Part shown: positions 5,117-12,867 of the stretch, piece by piece
Numbering within the stretch: position 1 is the first letter of the stretch
Layout of the letters: each line of letters begins with the position of its first letter
Source of the DNA: an uncultured Nitrosomonas sp.
Lineage (GTDB): Bacteria > Pseudomonadota > Gammaproteobacteria > Burkholderiales > Nitrosomonadaceae
Reading direction: 5' to 3'
NCBI GenBank assembly: GCA_902826115.1
Contig: CADEDO010000024.1
Span: forward strand, 1 to 37,427
DNA: 37,427 nt
Program-made: the position numbers and the translations under genes
Notes under the pieces: model-generated
The model's database searches: none
What the model was told of the DNA's origin: nothing
What the model saw: only the letters and a program-made list of their open reading frames with translations

Positions 5117-7414
5117 ATGCAGCAAATCCTTCATTCATCACTTAATAATGTACCTTCGGCGTGGATCAATGATCTTTCGACACAATTAACCGACGAGGAG
5201 CATGTCCTTGCCTGGCTCGAAACTGATCTGAATGCACATCTGCATTTTTCAGAAGGCATTATTGTTGTAACCAACAAGCGTTTAATGGCCAAAATGACAG
5301 ATGATGGAGTCTGGCAGGAATGGGGCTATCAGCAAGGATTGTTACTAACGCAACGAGATTATGCCGGAGTCGGTTGTCTGGAGTTATTGGATTCAAATGC
5401 GCGACTGGCGTATTGGCGTTACCGGTTAGGTAATGACATGGCGGTGAGTCGATTGATCGAGTGTTTTATACATCAACTTGATTACCACCTTACCGGTAAG
5501 TTGTCAGAACCCGATCACACGCAAACACAATGTCCAATTTGCGCTACTCTTTTATCCGCTGAGCAAGAAGAATGCCCTGTTTGTGAAAAGCAAGTTCATA
5601 CACCGCCCTCTACCTGGACTTTATTACGTCTATGGCGCTTTGCCAAACCCTATAAAGGGCGATTACTGATCGGATTTATTTTGACTCTATGCAGCACGGC
5701 AGCGACTCTGGTACCTCCCTACCTGACCATGCCATTGATGGATGATGTGTTGATACCGTATCAGAATGGTCAGCCAATCAATACTGATTTAGTCGAGCTC
5801 TATCTATCAGGTTTATTAGGCGCGGCAATTCTTGCCTGGGTATTGGGTTGGGCGCGAACCTATATGTTGGCACTGGTTTCTGAGCGTATTGGTGCAGATC
5901 TTCGTACTACAACTTACGAGCATTTGATTAATCTTTCACAGGAATATTTTGGTGGCAAGCGTACTGGCGATTTGATGGCACGTATTGGCTCTGAGACGGA
6001 TCGCATCAACCTATTTATTTCATTGCATCTGTTGGATTTTGCTACTGATGTCATCATGATTTGTATGACAGCGATCATTCTCACTTCAATCAATCCTTGG
6101 TTGGCCCTTGTAACACTCCTGCCGCTTCCGATTATTGCCTGGTTGATTCATCTGGTTCGCGACAGACTACGAATAGGCTTTGAGAAAGTGGATCGCATAT
6201 GGGCTGAAGTCAACAATGTGTTGGCAGACACGATTCCAGGCATTCGAGTGGTGAAAGCTTTTGCACAAGAGAAAAGAGAAGCCGCGCGCTTTCATGCGGC
6301 AAATCAACGGAATTTGCAAATTAATGACCGTGTTAACAGGATTTGGTCATTATTTACACCAACGGTTACTCTATTGACAGAAATTGGTCTGTTAGTAGTG
6401 TGGGTGTTTGGCATTTGGCAAATATCTAAGGATGAAATTTCTGTCGGGGTACTCACGGCTTTCCTGGCTTATATTGGTCGCTTTTACATCAGACTCGACT
6501 CAATGAGTCGTATTGTTTCCGTGACTCAAAAAGCTGCGGCTGGCACAAAACGTATTTTTGACATCTTAGATCACGTTTCCAGCGTTCCGGAATCGACCAA
6601 TCCGGTGCATATCACCACTGTTCAAGGGCAGATTGAATTACGTAATGTTGGTTTTCGCTATGGAACTCGCAGTATTACGCGTGACATCAACTTGACCATC
6701 AAACCAGGCGAAATGATTGGTTTGGTCGGGCACAGCGGTTCAGGAAAAAGCACTTTGGTTAATTTGATTTGTCGTTTTTATGATGTAACGGAAGGAACTA
6801 TTCTAATTGATGGGCATGATATTCGTTCATTAACCATAGCTGAATATCGTAAGCATATCGGTCTAGTGCTTCAAGAGCCCTTTCTATTCTATGGAACCAT
6901 TGCCGAAAATATCGCCTACGGTAAGCCAGATGCAACGCACTCGGAAATTGTATCTGCTGCAAGAGCTGCGCATGCACATGAATTTATACTGCGTCTTCCT
7001 CATGGATATGATTCACTGGTGGGTGAACGTGGCCAGGCGCTTTCGGGTGGCGAACGCCAACGTATTTCGATAGCCCGTGCACTATTGATCAATCCTCGCA
7101 TTTTAATCCTTGATGAAGCGACTTCATCAGTCGATACAACCACTGAGAAAGATATCCAGAAGGCATTGGATAATTTAGTGCGCGGGCGTACAACGATTGC
7201 CATTGCGCACCGCTTGTCTACTTTACGCGAAGCGAATCGATTGATCGTTCTTGATCGAGGCAGAATCGTCGAGATTGGAAATCATGCCGAATTGATGGAA
7301 CGCGAAGGTTATTACTATCGCTTGTATCAAGCCCAGGCACGTAATGTTGATACCGAGGATAGAGCATTTGTTCCTCCTGTTGTCGAGCATAGTGTCACAG
7401 GAGAGCATAAATGA
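5117..7414 (+). CDS. Cyanophycin-locus ABC transporter (fused membrane and ATPase domains)
   Basis: This 765-residue half-transporter resembles type IV exporters (MsbA/peptide exporters) and probably works as a homodimer in the inner membrane. Residues about 20-125 form an extra N-terminal domain with an IVVTNKRLM strand that resembles bacterial PH-like domains. A zinc-ribbon-like pair follows: CPIC (Cys139, Cys142) and CPVC (Cys153, Cys156). The six-helix membrane domain starts near 180. The ATPase domain has Walker A GHSGSGKST (538-546), signature LSGGERQR and Walker B ILILDEA with the D-loop SSVD. The start is fixed by an in-frame TAG two codons upstream. It overlaps the DUF1854 gene by 4 nt, and both precede the cyanophycin synthetases. 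The substrate is unknown; polymer precursors, dipeptides or a peptide are possible. Confidence 0.88.
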   Translation: MQQILHSSLNNVPSAWINDLSTQLTDEEHVLAWLETDLNAHLHFSEGIIVVTNKRLMAKMTDDGVWQEWGYQQGLLLTQRDYAGVGCLELLDSNARLAYWRYRLGNDMAVSRLIECFIHQLDYHLTGKLSEPDHTQTQCPICATLLSAEQEECPVCEKQVHTPPSTWTLLRLWRFAKPYKGRLLIGFILTLCSTAATLVPPYLTMPLMDDVLIPYQNGQPINTDLVELYLSGLLGAAILAWVLGWARTYMLALVSERIGADLRTTTYEHLINLSQEYFGGKRTGDLMARIGSETDRINLFISLHLLDFATDVIMICMTAIILTSINPWLALVTLLPLPIIAWLIHLVRDRLRIGFEKVDRIWAEVNNVLADTIPGIRVVKAFAQEKREAARFHAANQRNLQINDRVNRIWSLFTPTVTLLTEIGLLVVWVFGIWQISKDEISVGVLTAFLAYIGRFYIRLDSMSRIVSVTQKAAAGTKRIFDILDHVSSVPESTNPVHITTVQGQIELRNVGFRYGTRSITRDINLTIKPGEMIGLVGHSGSGKSTLVNLICRFYDVTEGTILIDGHDIRSLTIAEYRKHIGLVLQEPFLFYGTIAENIAYGKPDATHSEIVSAARAAHAHEFILRLPHGYDSLVGERGQALSGGERQRISIARALLINPRILILDEATSSVDTTTEKDIQKALDNLVRGRTTIAIAHRLSTLREANRLIVLDRGRIVEIGNHAELMEREGYYYRLYQAQARNVDTEDRAFVPPVVEHSVTGEHK

Positions 7415-7884
7415 ACAGTACGCTTGGGTATCAGTTGAGTCGGAATAGCTATGGGCGCTTGGTTTTTACAAATCAGTCAGGTTTGGTGCAAGAAGGCGTG
7501 GTGCCCGTGCGATCATTTCCGATCACGGAGCCAGATCAGGGTATTGCACTGATTGATCCCAATGGTCATGAATTGGCATGGATAGATCGATTAACTGATT
7601 TGCCGGAAGATTATCGAGTGCTTATTGAATCTGAGTTGGCTAATCGAGAGTTCATGCCGGAGATAAAGCGAATTCTCAAAATTTCAAGCTTTATTACACC
7701 CAATACCTGGCGAGTTGAAACGGATCGTGGCAATGCCACTTTCATTTTTAAAGGTGAAGAAAATATCCGGCGCTTAACGCTATCCGCTCTAATGATCACA
7801 GACAGTCATGGCATTCATTTTTTGATTCGTGATCGCTTATCGCTTGATCGCCATAGTCGCAAGTTATTAGACCATTTTCTGTAA
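7411..7884 (+). CDS. Cyanophycin-associated DUF1854 protein
   Basis: This 157-residue soluble protein is assigned to DUF1854, a family encoded beside cyanophycin synthetases and their ABC transporter in betaproteobacteria. No signal peptide, membrane helix or catalytic motif is visible. It looks like a beta-rich small domain (LIDPNGHELAWIDRLTDLP, then TWRVETDRGNATFIFKGEENIRR in the second half). It overlaps the transporter stop by 4 nt (ATGA), so the two products are probably made together and may form a complex. No biochemical function is established. Confidence 0.8.
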   Translation: MNSTLGYQLSRNSYGRLVFTNQSGLVQEGVVPVRSFPITEPDQGIALIDPNGHELAWIDRLTDLPEDYRVLIESELANREFMPEIKRILKISSFITPNTWRVETDRGNATFIFKGEENIRRLTLSALMITDSHGIHFLIRDRLSLDRHSRKLLDHFL

Positions 7885-7969: not shown

Positions 7970-10300
7970 ATGTCTAACTGCTCGAACCAAGATTGCCATA
8001 GTGCGAAAGATATCAAGTTTCTTGAGATTAAGCACTTAAATGGGCCCAATATTTGGACCTATCGCCCTACTCTCGAAGCAACGGTGGATATCGGTGAACT
8101 CGAAGACTATCCTTCCGACAAAATCCCAGGCTTTTATGAACGTTTGTCACAATGGCTTCCGTCATTGATTGAACATCGTTGCAGTTATGAAGAGCGTGGC
8201 GGTTTCTTACGCAGGGTACAAGAAGGTACGTGGCCATGCCATATTCTGGAACATGTGACATTGGAGCTGCAAAATTTGGCCGGCATGAAGGGTGGTTTCG
8301 GAAGGGCTCGTGAAACTTCGGTTCGTGGCGTCTATAAAGTGGCGTTGAGTGCTTGGCATGCGGAGATTACAACTGCAGCTTTACATTCAGCTCGTGAGCT
8401 TGTGCTGGCTGCCATGAATTTTCAGCAATCCAGTAACCCATCATATGACGTAGAAGGGGCAATCAATCATCTCCGTGATTTAGTGGATTCACTTTGGCTT
8501 GGGCCTTCTACAGCCTGTATCGTTGATGCGGCCATTGCACATAATATTCCTGCTACTAGGCTGATTCCTAGAGGAAATCTTGTGCAGTTGGGGTATGGTG
8601 CTCGCAGTCGGCATATCTGGACTGCAGAAACAGATCGCACACCGGCTATTGCAGAAAGTATTTCTCGTGATAAAGATTTGACGAAAGCATTGCTGCAATC
8701 TTGCGGAGTTCCTGTTCCAGAAGGGCGCATCGTTGAAAGTGCAAAAGATGCTTGGGAAGCGGCTAATGACATAGGTTTGCCAGTAGTTATAAAACCATGT
8801 GATGGCAATCATGGACGGGGGGTTTTCATTGAATTAACTCATCGGGAAGAAATTGAATCAGCCTATCACATTGCACTTGAAGAAGGCACGGGTGTAATAG
8901 TTGAAAGTTATATACCCGGTACTGAACATCGTTTATTAATAGTGGGTGGAAAACTTGTGGCCGCCACAAGGGGTGATTCGGTATCTGTGATCGGGGATGG
9001 TTCATCAACCATTGCTGAGTTGATTAATTCACAAATTAACGCCGATCCTCGTCGTGGAACGACAGAGAATCACCCGTTAAACCTAATTCGTATTGATAGC
9101 GCGACACAAATTGAAATTGCTCGCCAGGGTTATGAGAGTGATTCAATAGTCCCAGTAGGCACTAAAGTTTTGGTTCAACGGAATGGTAATCATGCATTTG
9201 ATGTTACTGATGAAGTGCATCCCAGTATTGCATCCGTTGCATCATTAGCTGCTCGCGTGATTGGGTTGGATATTGCGGGCATTGATTTGGTTGTCGGCGA
9301 TATTTCCCGCCCACTGAATGAGCAAAACGGGGCCATTGTTGAAGTTAATGCGGGTCCTAGCTTACTGATGCATATTAAACCCGTGGTTGGCACTCCTCGT
9401 CCCGTTGGCAAAGCAATTGTTGATCATCTATTTCCAGATCAGGATAACGGTCGTATTCCCATTGTAGGGATCAGTGGCAGTTATGGAAAGACAGCCGTTG
9501 CACATATTGTCGCCAGATTGCTCATCCTTTCAGGTAAGCAAACAGGGTTGGCATGTAGTGACGGGTTATATCTGGATTATAGGCAAATCGATAAGAATGA
9601 TAGTGCCAATTGGGCGGCAGCTAATCGTACTCTGTTAAATCCGACGATTGAGGCAGCCGTTTTTGAGAATGGTTTTGATGCCATTCTGGATGAAGGGCTG
9701 GTTTACGATAGCTGTCAAGTGGGTGTTATCACTAATGTCGATCCGACTTGTCATTTTGGACGATCTGGGATTGAAACAATCAAGCAAGTTTTCACTGTAC
9801 TTCGCACACAAGTAGATGTAGTCACTCCTACAGCGGCAGCTATTGATGATGTTGAAAAGCATATAAAACTGCCTATTGGCGCCGCAATTCTTAATGCGCG
9901 AGATGAGATGTTGATTGAGATTTCTGAACTGTGCCATGGTGAAGTTATTTTCTTCAGCATCGAACCAGATTTACCTGCCATCGTAAAGCACCGTGGTAGC
10001 GGAACTGGTCCTACTCAAGGAAAACGCGCAGTAATTGTACGTAATAAAATTATCTCACTAGCTACCGGTTCCAATGAATTACCCCTGATCAAGCTGGCGG
10101 AAATACCTTCAGCAGTAGGTGAGCATAGTGTTGAAGAAATAGAAAATGTGATGGCCGCTATTGGAGCAGCATGGGCATTAGGTATTGAACCAGATCTGAT
10201 ACGGATCGGTATTGAAACATTCGGATTTGATCAAGAAAAACATAAGTCCGGAAAAGAGAAATTTCAAATCGGACTACAAACTCAAGGAATTAAGCTATGA
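7970..10300 (+). CDS. Cyanophycin synthetase paralogue lacking the Mur-ligase lid (CphA'-like)
   Basis: This 776-residue homologue of cyanophycin synthetase has three parts. The N-domain runs to about residue 165 and contains an HILEH motif (His91, Glu94, His95) followed by Glu99. The ATP-grasp domain (about 225-490) is the module that in CphA adds aspartate to the backbone and keeps KPCDGNHGRGV. The Mur-ligase-like domain (about 495-776) is incomplete. Its P-loop reads GSYGKT (503-508) rather than GTNGKT, the ETARGG motif is replaced by ENGFDA (566-571), and the protein ends where the roughly 147-residue C-terminal lid should begin. It probably cannot add arginine by itself. It overlaps cphA by 4 nt (ATGA), so equal expression and a mixed complex are plausible. 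Confidence 0.88.
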   Translation: MSNCSNQDCHSAKDIKFLEIKHLNGPNIWTYRPTLEATVDIGELEDYPSDKIPGFYERLSQWLPSLIEHRCSYEERGGFLRRVQEGTWPCHILEHVTLELQNLAGMKGGFGRARETSVRGVYKVALSAWHAEITTAALHSARELVLAAMNFQQSSNPSYDVEGAINHLRDLVDSLWLGPSTACIVDAAIAHNIPATRLIPRGNLVQLGYGARSRHIWTAETDRTPAIAESISRDKDLTKALLQSCGVPVPEGRIVESAKDAWEAANDIGLPVVIKPCDGNHGRGVFIELTHREEIESAYHIALEEGTGVIVESYIPGTEHRLLIVGGKLVAATRGDSVSVIGDGSSTIAELINSQINADPRRGTTENHPLNLIRIDSATQIEIARQGYESDSIVPVGTKVLVQRNGNHAFDVTDEVHPSIASVASLAARVIGLDIAGIDLVVGDISRPLNEQNGAIVEVNAGPSLLMHIKPVVGTPRPVGKAIVDHLFPDQDNGRIPIVGISGSYGKTAVAHIVARLLILSGKQTGLACSDGLYLDYRQIDKNDSANWAAANRTLLNPTIEAAVFENGFDAILDEGLVYDSCQVGVITNVDPTCHFGRSGIETIKQVFTVLRTQVDVVTPTAAAIDDVEKHIKLPIGAAILNARDEMLIEISELCHGEVIFFSIEPDLPAIVKHRGSGTGPTQGKRAVIVRNKIISLATGSNELPLIKLAEIPSAVGEHSVEEIENVMAAIGAAWALGIEPDLIRIGIETFGFDQEKHKSGKEKFQIGLQTQGIKL

Positions 10301-12867
10301 AATTATTACGAATTAGAGCACTGCGCGGCCCCAATTTATGGAGCCAACATACATCTATTGAAGCCACAATATTTTGTAGTGGATCAGAAAATAATATTAC
10401 TGCCATACCTGGGTTTGAAGCACGATTGCGTGAGCGTTTTCCAGAGATTTCTTCACTGCAGCCGGCAGGCCACCATGAAGCGGTCACAATGGCTCACGTA
10501 CTTGAGTTTGCTACACTCGGATTGCAAGTGCAAGCCGGTTGCCCAATCACTTTCAGCCATACAGTTAAGACGCCGGAAGTAGATACTTATCGAGTGATAG
10601 TTGGATACAGCGAAGAGAAAGTTGGTCGGTTAGCTTTTGAGTTGGCACAAGCTTTGTGCACCGCAGCTATTGAAAGCACTGAATTCGATTTAAATAATGC
10701 TGTGCATCGTTTGCGTGAACTCAATGAGGATATTCGCTTAGGACCGAGTACAGGTGCGATTGTTCAAGCTGCGGTTGCACGTGGCATCCCTTTCCGTCGT
10801 TTAACTGAAGGGAGTTTGGTTCAGTTTGGCTGGGGCATTAAGCAACGCCGTATTCAGGCTTCCGAAAGTGATATGACTAGTGCGGTTGCCGAATCCATCG
10901 TGCAAGATAAAGAGCTTACTAAAACATTGCTGCATGCCGCAGGTATTCCTGTTCCACTGGGGCGAAATGTAAGGAGTGCGGAAGATGCGTGGATCGCAGC
11001 GTGTGAAATAGGCACTCCGGTAGTTATCAAGCCTCAAGATAGTAACCAGGGTAAGGGGGTGACGGTTAATCTTACTGATGCTGAGCAAGTAAAATCTGCC
11101 TTTATGATTGCTTCGGAATTCAGTAGTAATGTTTTAGTTGAGCGTTATCTTCCTGGGTACGATTATCGCATGCTGGTTGTAGGCAATAAGCTAGTTGCCG
11201 CTGCTCGCCGCGATCCTCCACAAGTGACGGGCGATGGAAAACACAACATTCGGCAGTTGGTAGAGCAAATCAATCGCGACCCAATGCGTGGCGAAGGTCA
11301 TGTCACTTCATTAACTAAGATACATTTAGATGAAATTTCTCTAGCCCATTTGGCAGCACAAGGATTGACAGCAGATTCTATTCCGGCCAAAGGGGTACGT
11401 GTAATTTTGCGCAATAATGCCAATCTTTCAACTGGCGGAACAGCGACTGATGTCACTGATGATGTTCACCCGGAGTTGGCAGCCCGCGTGGTTGCTGCTG
11501 CACAAGTCGTCGGATTGGATATTTGCGGAATTGATGTTGTTTGTGACAATGTCATGAAATCATTAGAGGAACAAGGCGGCGGTGTTATTGAGATTAACGC
11601 CGCTCCCGGCTTGCGCATGCATTTGCAGCCGTCTTTCGGTAAAGGGCGTGCAGTAGGTGAGGCTATTATTGACAATATGTTCGCCCAGGGTGACGATGCA
11701 CGTATCCCAGTGATTGCTGTAACAGGCACTAATGGCAAAACAACAACGGCACGTTTGATTGCCAATGTTTTAGGCAGCGATAACAAATGCGTAGGTCTAA
11801 CGTGTACTGATGGTGTCTATATTGATGGTCAGTGCATGGATACCGGTGATTGCAGTGGTCCGAAAAGTGCCAGGAATGTACTCTTTCATCCTGATGTTGA
11901 AGCTGCAGTGCTAGAGACCGCACGCGGTGGCTTATTACGTGAAGGCTTGGGTTTTGATCGCTGCCATGTTGCAGTAGTGACAAACATTGGTATGGGTGAT
12001 CATCTGGGTATGGCTTATGTGAATACTGTAGAAGAGTTGGCAGTGGTTAAACGAGTCGTGGTGCAGAATGTGATGCCGAATGGTTTTGCAGTGCTGAATG
12101 CAGCTGATTCGTTAGTGGTCAGTATGGCAGATCATTGCCCTGGTTCGGTTATTTTCTTTGCACAAGACAGCCATAATCCAGTATTAGCAATGCACCGCGC
12201 ACAGCATAAACGCGTTATCTTTGTAGAAAACGACTGCATTGTTGCTTTGGGTGAAGATAGCGAATATCGGATACCATTAAGTGAGATTCCACTTACAAAG
12301 AATGGCAGCATTAGTTTTCAAGTTGAGAATGCCATGGCTGCCGTGGGCGCCGGTTGGGCCTTGGGTATAGATTGGGCAATTATCCAAGCAGGCCTATCCA
12401 GTTTTGAAAATAACATACAAACAGCGCCAGGACGTTTCAATCTGTTTAACTATCGGAATGCCACCTTGATTGCGGACTATGGACACAATCCAGATGCAAT
12501 ACAGGCACTGGTTAGTGCTATTGACAATATTCCATCTAAGAAACGTTCGGTAGTAATTAGTGCTGCAGGCGATAGACGTGATGAGGATATTCGTCAGCAG
12601 ACCAGAATCCTTGGTGATGCATTTGACGAGGTCGTTCTTTACCAGGATCAATGTCAACGTGGTCGTGCAGATGGAGAAGTATTGACTTTATTGCGCGAAG
12701 GACTGGGAAATGCAAAGCGCACGCAAAAAATAAGTGAAATATTTGGGGAGGCAATCGCAATTGATGCCGCACTATCCAATTTACAAGACGGCGAGTTATG
12801 CCTCATTTTAGTTGATCAAGTTGAGCAATCACTTGGGCAGATTAATCATCGTGTTGCATTAGGTTGA
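10297..12867 (+). CDS. cphA: Cyanophycin synthetase
   Basis: CphA polymerises cyanophycin, a poly-aspartate backbone with arginine on each side chain, using ATP; it is a cytoplasmic nitrogen store. At 856 residues it is near the family length. It contains an N-domain, an ATP-grasp domain (KPQDSNQGKGV, about 215-470) and a Mur-ligase domain with P-loop GTNGKTTT (477-484), ETARGG (540-545), GMGDHLG and a complete lid (from PGRFN near 710; DYGHNPDA). The N-domain site reads HVLEF, with Phe71 in place of the second His and Gly75 in place of the downstream Glu. The hidden primer-making centre described in some CphA1 enzymes is therefore likely inactive here. No cyanophycinase is in the window. Confidence 0.95.
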   Translation: MKLLRIRALRGPNLWSQHTSIEATIFCSGSENNITAIPGFEARLRERFPEISSLQPAGHHEAVTMAHVLEFATLGLQVQAGCPITFSHTVKTPEVDTYRVIVGYSEEKVGRLAFELAQALCTAAIESTEFDLNNAVHRLRELNEDIRLGPSTGAIVQAAVARGIPFRRLTEGSLVQFGWGIKQRRIQASESDMTSAVAESIVQDKELTKTLLHAAGIPVPLGRNVRSAEDAWIAACEIGTPVVIKPQDSNQGKGVTVNLTDAEQVKSAFMIASEFSSNVLVERYLPGYDYRMLVVGNKLVAAARRDPPQVTGDGKHNIRQLVEQINRDPMRGEGHVTSLTKIHLDEISLAHLAAQGLTADSIPAKGVRVILRNNANLSTGGTATDVTDDVHPELAARVVAAAQVVGLDICGIDVVCDNVMKSLEEQGGGVIEINAAPGLRMHLQPSFGKGRAVGEAIIDNMFAQGDDARIPVIAVTGTNGKTTTARLIANVLGSDNKCVGLTCTDGVYIDGQCMDTGDCSGPKSARNVLFHPDVEAAVLETARGGLLREGLGFDRCHVAVVTNIGMGDHLGMAYVNTVEELAVVKRVVVQNVMPNGFAVLNAADSLVVSMADHCPGSVIFFAQDSHNPVLAMHRAQHKRVIFVENDCIVALGEDSEYRIPLSEIPLTKNGSISFQVENAMAAVGAGWALGIDWAIIQAGLSSFENNIQTAPGRFNLFNYRNATLIADYGHNPDAIQALVSAIDNIPSKKRSVVISAAGDRRDEDIRQQTRILGDAFDEVVLYQDQCQRGRADGEVLTLLREGLGNAKRTQKISEIFGEAIAIDAALSNLQDGELCLILVDQVEQSLGQINHRVALG

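Follow-up and report, generated by a model that had tools for sequence, protein, structure and literature searches.

The closest described relatives of the genes treated here are cyanophycin synthetases of the CphA1 type. According to PMC9262961, the enzyme of Synechocystis sp. UTEX2470 (SuCphA1; 7lg5, 7txv) is composed of N, G and M domains and carries three active sites in one chain. The cutting site of its N domain is formed by Cys59, His79, Glu82 and His83, with His57, Phe67, Arg70 and Glu87 around it, and residues near the site also bind the polymer. The corresponding motif, Cx19HxxEH, is found in 83% of CphA1 and is hence not obligatory for the class. Cutting is slow, its products being mainly tetramers and not dipeptides. 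CphA1 of Tatumella morbirosei (TmCphA1; 7lgn) lacks the N site and is primer-dependent, and it becomes primer-independent when the isolated SuCphA1 N domain is added in trans (PMC9262961). The present study concerns a stretch of 37,427 nucleotides from an uncultured Nitrosomonas sp. (GenBank assembly GCA_902826115.1, 3.09 Mb; contig CADEDO010000024.1, here C24), hereafter the window, whose open reading frame (ORF) list contains two head-to-tail cph genes on the forward strand. The first, CphA' (7970-10300, 776 amino acids, aa), encodes a shortened CphA1 paralogue, and the second, CphA (10297-12867, 856 aa), a full-length synthetase. The domains, the Cx19HxxEH motif and the G and M residues of SuCphA1 are all represented in the window, whereas its single chain is not: the cutting site lies in CphA' and the building sites in CphA.

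Neighbouring cphA copies are already known. The accessible part of PMC10687191 describes a Group 1 cluster with two neighbouring cphA copies and an ABC gene but no cphB, the same gene pair as in the window; this group comprises the sludge genomes other than Tetrasphaera in a collection that includes Nitrosomonas. There, such copies are credited also to Fuser and Steinbuchel (2007), and both are reported to be evenly expressed in Accumulibacter. Flanking insertion sequences were proposed for Group 1 (PMC10687191), whereas no transposase was found among the 15 Pfam-scanned ORFs of the window. No mention of reciprocal site loss was found in the accessible part of that paper, nor was the CphA'/CphA pair found to be treated in that of PMC10206079, where the co-occurrence of cyanophycin genes was counted. 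A literature search whose coverage left out most subscription papers returned no paper on reciprocal site loss in such pairs.

The cutting site of CphA' (8180-8254, forward strand) is complete. In an alignment with solved CphA1 chains, Cys71 (8180-8182), His91 (8240-8242), Glu94 (8249-8251) and His95 (8252-8254) correspond to Cys59, His79, Glu82 and His83 of SuCphA1, and His69, Phe79, Arg82 and Glu99 to His57, Phe67, Arg70 and Glu87, so that all eight residues of the N-domain endo-cyanophycinase are kept; the Cx19HxxEH site was invariant among 12 aligned sequences. In CphA, HVLEF (residues 67-71; 10495-10509, forward strand) stands at the place of HxxEH, the upstream loop with the Cys is deleted and Gly75 replaces the Glu87 equivalent, leaving the protein without the CphA1 motif. 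The original prediction, made on the window's letters and ORF translations, had noticed HILEH and Glu99 in the paralogue against HVLEF and Gly in CphA, and had proposed that HILEH superposes on the known cutting site. The alignment to SuCphA1 bears out both points and adds the third metal ligand, which had been overlooked: since Cys71 matches Cys59, CphA' has the Cx19HxxEH motif of PMC9262961 in full. As this motif is absent from CphA2 by definition (7ta5; one synthetic site, PMC9262961), CphA', which keeps the N site and has lost the G-domain residues for Asp addition, does not belong to that class either.

The building sites follow the opposite pattern. With the residues of the Asp-adding site taken from PMC9427784 and SuCphA1 numbering, CphA retains the equivalents of R309, R323, N394, S396, G456 and R458, together with the M-domain P-loop, E558, D585, H586 and the lid residues R731 and H748, and thus carries the complete Asp-adding and M-domain sites of a CphA1. 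The G (ATP-grasp) domain of CphA' (8492-9439, forward strand, approximate limits) keeps the Lys261, His267 and Arg309 equivalents; those of R323, S396 and R458 are gone, and the large loop, with the S396 position, is shortened. H16 CphA' was reportedly noted by Adames in 2013 to lack a large part of the so-called J-loop, which would fit this shortening. These G-domain differences had escaped the original prediction, whose description of the Mur-ligase half was accurate: GTNGKTTT, ETARGG and a lid in CphA, where a Mur_ligase_C match was also obtained, against GSYGKT and ENGFDA in the CphA' M-core remnant (9440-10234, forward strand, approximate limits), which lacks a lid and in which a Cys also replaces Asp585. 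CphA' is therefore not a CphA1 with complete G and M sites.

Conservation of this reciprocal pattern was assessed in two sets of loci, which may overlap, as L053 and L095 lie on equally long contigs (45106). Set 1 comprised the window and the best 80 of 557 confirmed genome-contig stretches, located with sequence patterns taken from non-catalytic positions of the CphA' N domain; its CphA could be read at a length of at least 600 residues in 77 of the 80 loci, 78 with the window. Set 2 covered 53 genera found through CphA in samples of the order (300 genomes, 111 with a match), the class (370, 20 with a match) and the phylum (397, 37 with a match); g12 was left out (G035, CphA in two frames), and g1 was covered by the window and set 1. 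Genomes with at least two matches in the genome table were taken as pair genomes, with adjacency read in the fetched regions, while unpaired status rests on a single match per genome, often with only about 0.5 kb of flank. All but G053, G134 and G236 of the 10 single-match genomes were read, and one three-site locus (L185) and the second loci of g55 (L153, L154, L173) were counted neither as pairs nor as unpaired.

The Cys-His-Glu-His set was present in CphA' in 81/81 cases of set 1 and 55/56 of set 2, that is in 55/55 readable copies, as the only miss (L172) is cut by a contig end before the N domain. It was absent from every paired CphA (0/78 and 0/56) and present in 31 of 32 unpaired CphA1, the exception being a divergent protein (L171). 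The co-occurrence proposed from the window thus holds in every readable fetched pair, with the site lost in CphA and kept in its neighbour. Conversely, the four Asp-site residues never occurred together in CphA' (0/81 and 0/56, or 0/137) and always did in CphA (78/78 and 56/56), and the M-core residues were complete in 18/81 and 9/56 of CphA' against 78/78 and 56/56 of CphA. The M domain of CphA' is eroded to a varying degree, and in L155 the G domain as well; the N site is eroded in no readable copy. In genus g15 (L102 and L101), CphA' occurs with an M lid in an 881-aa form and without it in a 726-aa form, so that loss of the lid may not have been a single event.

In the window, the stop codon of CphA' and the start codon of CphA overlap in the sequence ATGA (10297-10300, forward strand), as originally described. 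Among the pairs measured elsewhere, 133/133 lay on one strand, 122/133 were at most 100 bases apart and 27/133 overlapped by four bases; in one genome (G029) the genes are on two contigs. Matches in the order sample fell in 54 genera, with at least two matches in 101 genomes and one in 10 (51 and 3 by genus). A plasmid search matched 25 records, all under 60% identity.

Both proteins are under purifying selection, as indicated by the ratio of nonsynonymous to synonymous substitution rates (dN/dS). In CphA', values were low for the N domain, the G domain and the M-core remnant, with 0.042-0.183 for the last; those for the CphA N domain ranged from 0 to 0.231. Between the window and L007, a value of 0.77 was obtained for the C-terminal tail of CphA'. 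This tail could be taken as a sign of plain redundancy, in which the pair would represent two independent synthetases or include a decaying duplicate without a role, as could the fact that both proteins pass NF010623 and are named cyanophycin synthetase by it. Genome G007, from the genus of the window, points the same way: its CphA' and CphA matches are fragmented (G007:C45:259457-263862), with stops in CphA', and its match to the DUF1854 family, discussed below, is split in two (G007:C28:3562-4001), so that the whole system seems to be decaying there. A full Asp site in none of 137 CphA', the low dN/dS of all three CphA' regions just named, and at least two matches in 51 of the 54 genera speak against redundancy, which is highly improbable. 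Selection on the M-core remnant is also compatible with CphA' being a structural or regulatory pseudoenzyme, its G and M sites lost and its N site kept for metal-dependent folding or for polymer binding, a property of the residues near this site in SuCphA1, with no cutting involved. Against this, every readable CphA' retains the general base Glu94 and all three metal ligands, whereas CphA, which must likewise fold and bind polymer, has lost the site; we regard a pseudoenzyme as very unlikely.

A G-domain tree inferred by a quick method from 67 rows, which included 22 chosen pairs, four rows from the g55 second loci and 18 unpaired CphA1, two solved chains among these, recovered CphA' (support 100) and CphA (96) as separate clades. 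These were joined with L185 at a support of 99, apart from the unpaired CphA1 and the g55 rows, while the position of L185 inside the joint clade was poorly supported (16). One duplication is the simplest account of all pairs. The CphA1 of L185 unites the three sites in a single chain, broken off by the contig end, and its gene adjoins ABC and DUF1854 genes. Within its own class, a search for relatives returned only L185 itself (1 of 48). Its assembly (G787), in which the protein is named Magnetococcales, is 8% contaminated and its DUF1854 match contains a stop, so the contig may belong to another organism. Among the best 120 of about 8000 proteins scored for L185, itself included, the N site was present in 120/120 and nearly all G and M residues were kept, in one chain. 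Three sites in one chain, as in L185 and these relatives, is likely to be the state before the split.

The same relatives bear on a residue of the CphA G domain, Gln251 (11047-11049, forward strand; P-loop SNQGKG), which stands at the place of SuCphA1 His267. At first sight this exchange resembled a further complementary loss that would mark the G domain as dead, a reading that was rejected. Gln occupies the position in 75/78 and 53/56 paired CphA of sets 1 and 2, and in 85 of the 120 listed L185 relatives (Lys in one); because these keep their sites whole in one chain, the exchange is a normal variant.

The pair likely represents a split cyanophycin synthetase, and, judging from sequence, we consider it somewhat more probable than any opposite view that CphA' is a primer cutter acting in trans and CphA the chain builder. 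CphA' would bind zinc through Cys71, His91 and His95, with Glu94 as the putative general base, and would cut the chains that CphA builds into short pieces, which CphA, by adding Asp and Arg, would extend again. The dead G and M parts of CphA' may serve as a scaffold that keeps the protein close to CphA, probably within a mixed dimer or tetramer. Priming by CphA' is plausible because the SuCphA1 N domain, supplied in trans, makes TmCphA1 primer-independent. Of the divided labour originally predicted, the division of sites is upheld by the reciprocally kept and lost residues in the alignment, their conservation in both surveys, the common origin seen in the tree and purifying selection; primer generation and a hetero-oligomer are plausible.

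Several observations weigh against this reading. Site loss needs no partner, since the unpaired CphA1 of T. morbirosei, which works with added primer, lacks the site (PMC9262961), as does the A. baylyi chain 7lgm; the available text of that paper describes no site-keeping partner for the T. morbirosei enzyme, whereas the window CphA has one. Because all pairs trace to one duplication, the losses counted in the survey are not independent events. Selection still acts on the CphA N domain, which must hence have some role without the site. Moreover, the cphA genes of R. eutropha H16 were reported to yield no cyanophycin, neither in E. coli nor in the native host, where both homologues are present (Adames 2013, as cited in PMC8560796 and PMC11362209); this counts against every reading with cyanophycin as the product of the pair. 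Finally, the kept site may serve breakdown instead of priming, given the scarcity of recognised cyanophycinase in pair genomes, and with a linked ABC transporter trimming, breakdown or export are possible.

These last points concern the surroundings of the pair. Upstream of CphA', on the same strand, lie an exporter-type ABC transporter gene (5117-7414; PF00664, PF00005; NF052233, 'cyanophycin metabolism-associated ABC transporter', 1423 bits) and a DUF1854 gene (7411-7884; NF052234, 'cyanophycin metabolism-associated DUF1854 family protein', 224.8 bits), which share a four-base overlap (7411-7414) like that of CphA' and CphA. In the order sample, NF052234 was matched in 100/101 pair genomes, 1/10 single-match genomes and 0/189 genomes without a cphA match; the sole single-match genome with it (G053) is fragmented into 470 contigs, has no cyanophycinase and may be a broken-up pair genome. 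Among 30 further genomes, it was found in 0/25 with an unpaired CphA1, in 3/3 with a pair, in G787 (with an internal stop) and in G007 (split in two). Both genes flanked 63 of the 80 pairs of set 1, one of them flanked two and neither 15, some flanks ending at contig ends; in three genomes of the window's genus (G161, G193, G222) the DUF1854 gene lies elsewhere. By co-occurrence, the upstream ABC and DUF1854 genes belong to the same system, and the literature search found no paper treating cyanophycin and DUF1854 together. Association with the transporter seems to predate the split, since the three-site CphA1 of L185 adjoins both genes.

Cyanophycinase shows the reverse distribution: TIGR02069 exceeded its cut-off in 8/101 pair genomes, 9/10 single-match genomes and 5/189 genomes without a cphA match. 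The genome of the window has neither a TIGR02069 cyanophycinase nor a Peptidase_S51 (PF03575) match, but it does have one Asparaginase_2-type peptidase. CphA' might accordingly be a depolymerase or chain trimmer that shortens or mobilises the polymer without cyanophycinase, with the short pieces then taken over by a peptidase or by the linked exporter-type transporter, and the lack of cyanophycin reported with the R. eutropha H16 genes would agree with this. Yet the slow N-domain cut, giving mainly tetramers and not dipeptides, suits such a role poorly, as does the coupling of a cutter gene to a synthetase gene, with most pairs at most 100 bases apart and some overlapping by ATGA; L185 has the ABC and DUF1854 genes beside a three-site CphA1, and cyanophycinase types beyond TIGR02069 were sought only in the window's genome, through PF03575. 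Taken together, a depolymerase or trimmer is possible but rather doubtful. It is unlikely, although conceivable, that the pair stands at the centre of a distinct, second type of cyanophycin system, whose two-subunit synthetase with a cutter in trans, linked to its own ABC exporter and the DUF1854 protein in place of a cyanophycinase, would make short cyanophycin-like oligomers for export or the cell envelope and not storage granules.

Further observations concern related loci. Three of the eight cyanophycinase-bearing pair genomes belong to g55, where the cyanophycinase gene adjoins a second cph locus (L153, L154, L173; G079, G273, G298) in which two full-length CphA1-like genes point in opposite directions and neither encodes the N site; these genomes also have a CphA match of the usual type, and in G079 the usual pair was read (L114). 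In L180 and L181, an open frame of 588-590 aa matching the Mur-ligase half of CphA1 lies directly downstream of an unpaired CphA1 with an intact N site. In the window, ArgJ, an arginine biosynthesis gene, is located at 183-1409, a few kilobases upstream of the cph pair, and CphA' shares 97% identity with a Nitrosomonas protein (P0007) among the best 120 of about 8000 scored proteins.

CphA1 has been presented as self-sufficient, with three sites in one chain (PMC9262961), whereas here the residues of the cutting and building sites are distributed over two proteins, both kept in the 53 genera read. The finding may bear on failed production with betaproteobacterial genes, yet R. eutropha H16, which has both homologues, reportedly makes no cyanophycin. 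If the proposed division of labour is true, some seemingly primer-dependent CphA1 would rely on a neighbour and not on leftover primer, and a separate cutter gene would allow its dose to tune chain length.
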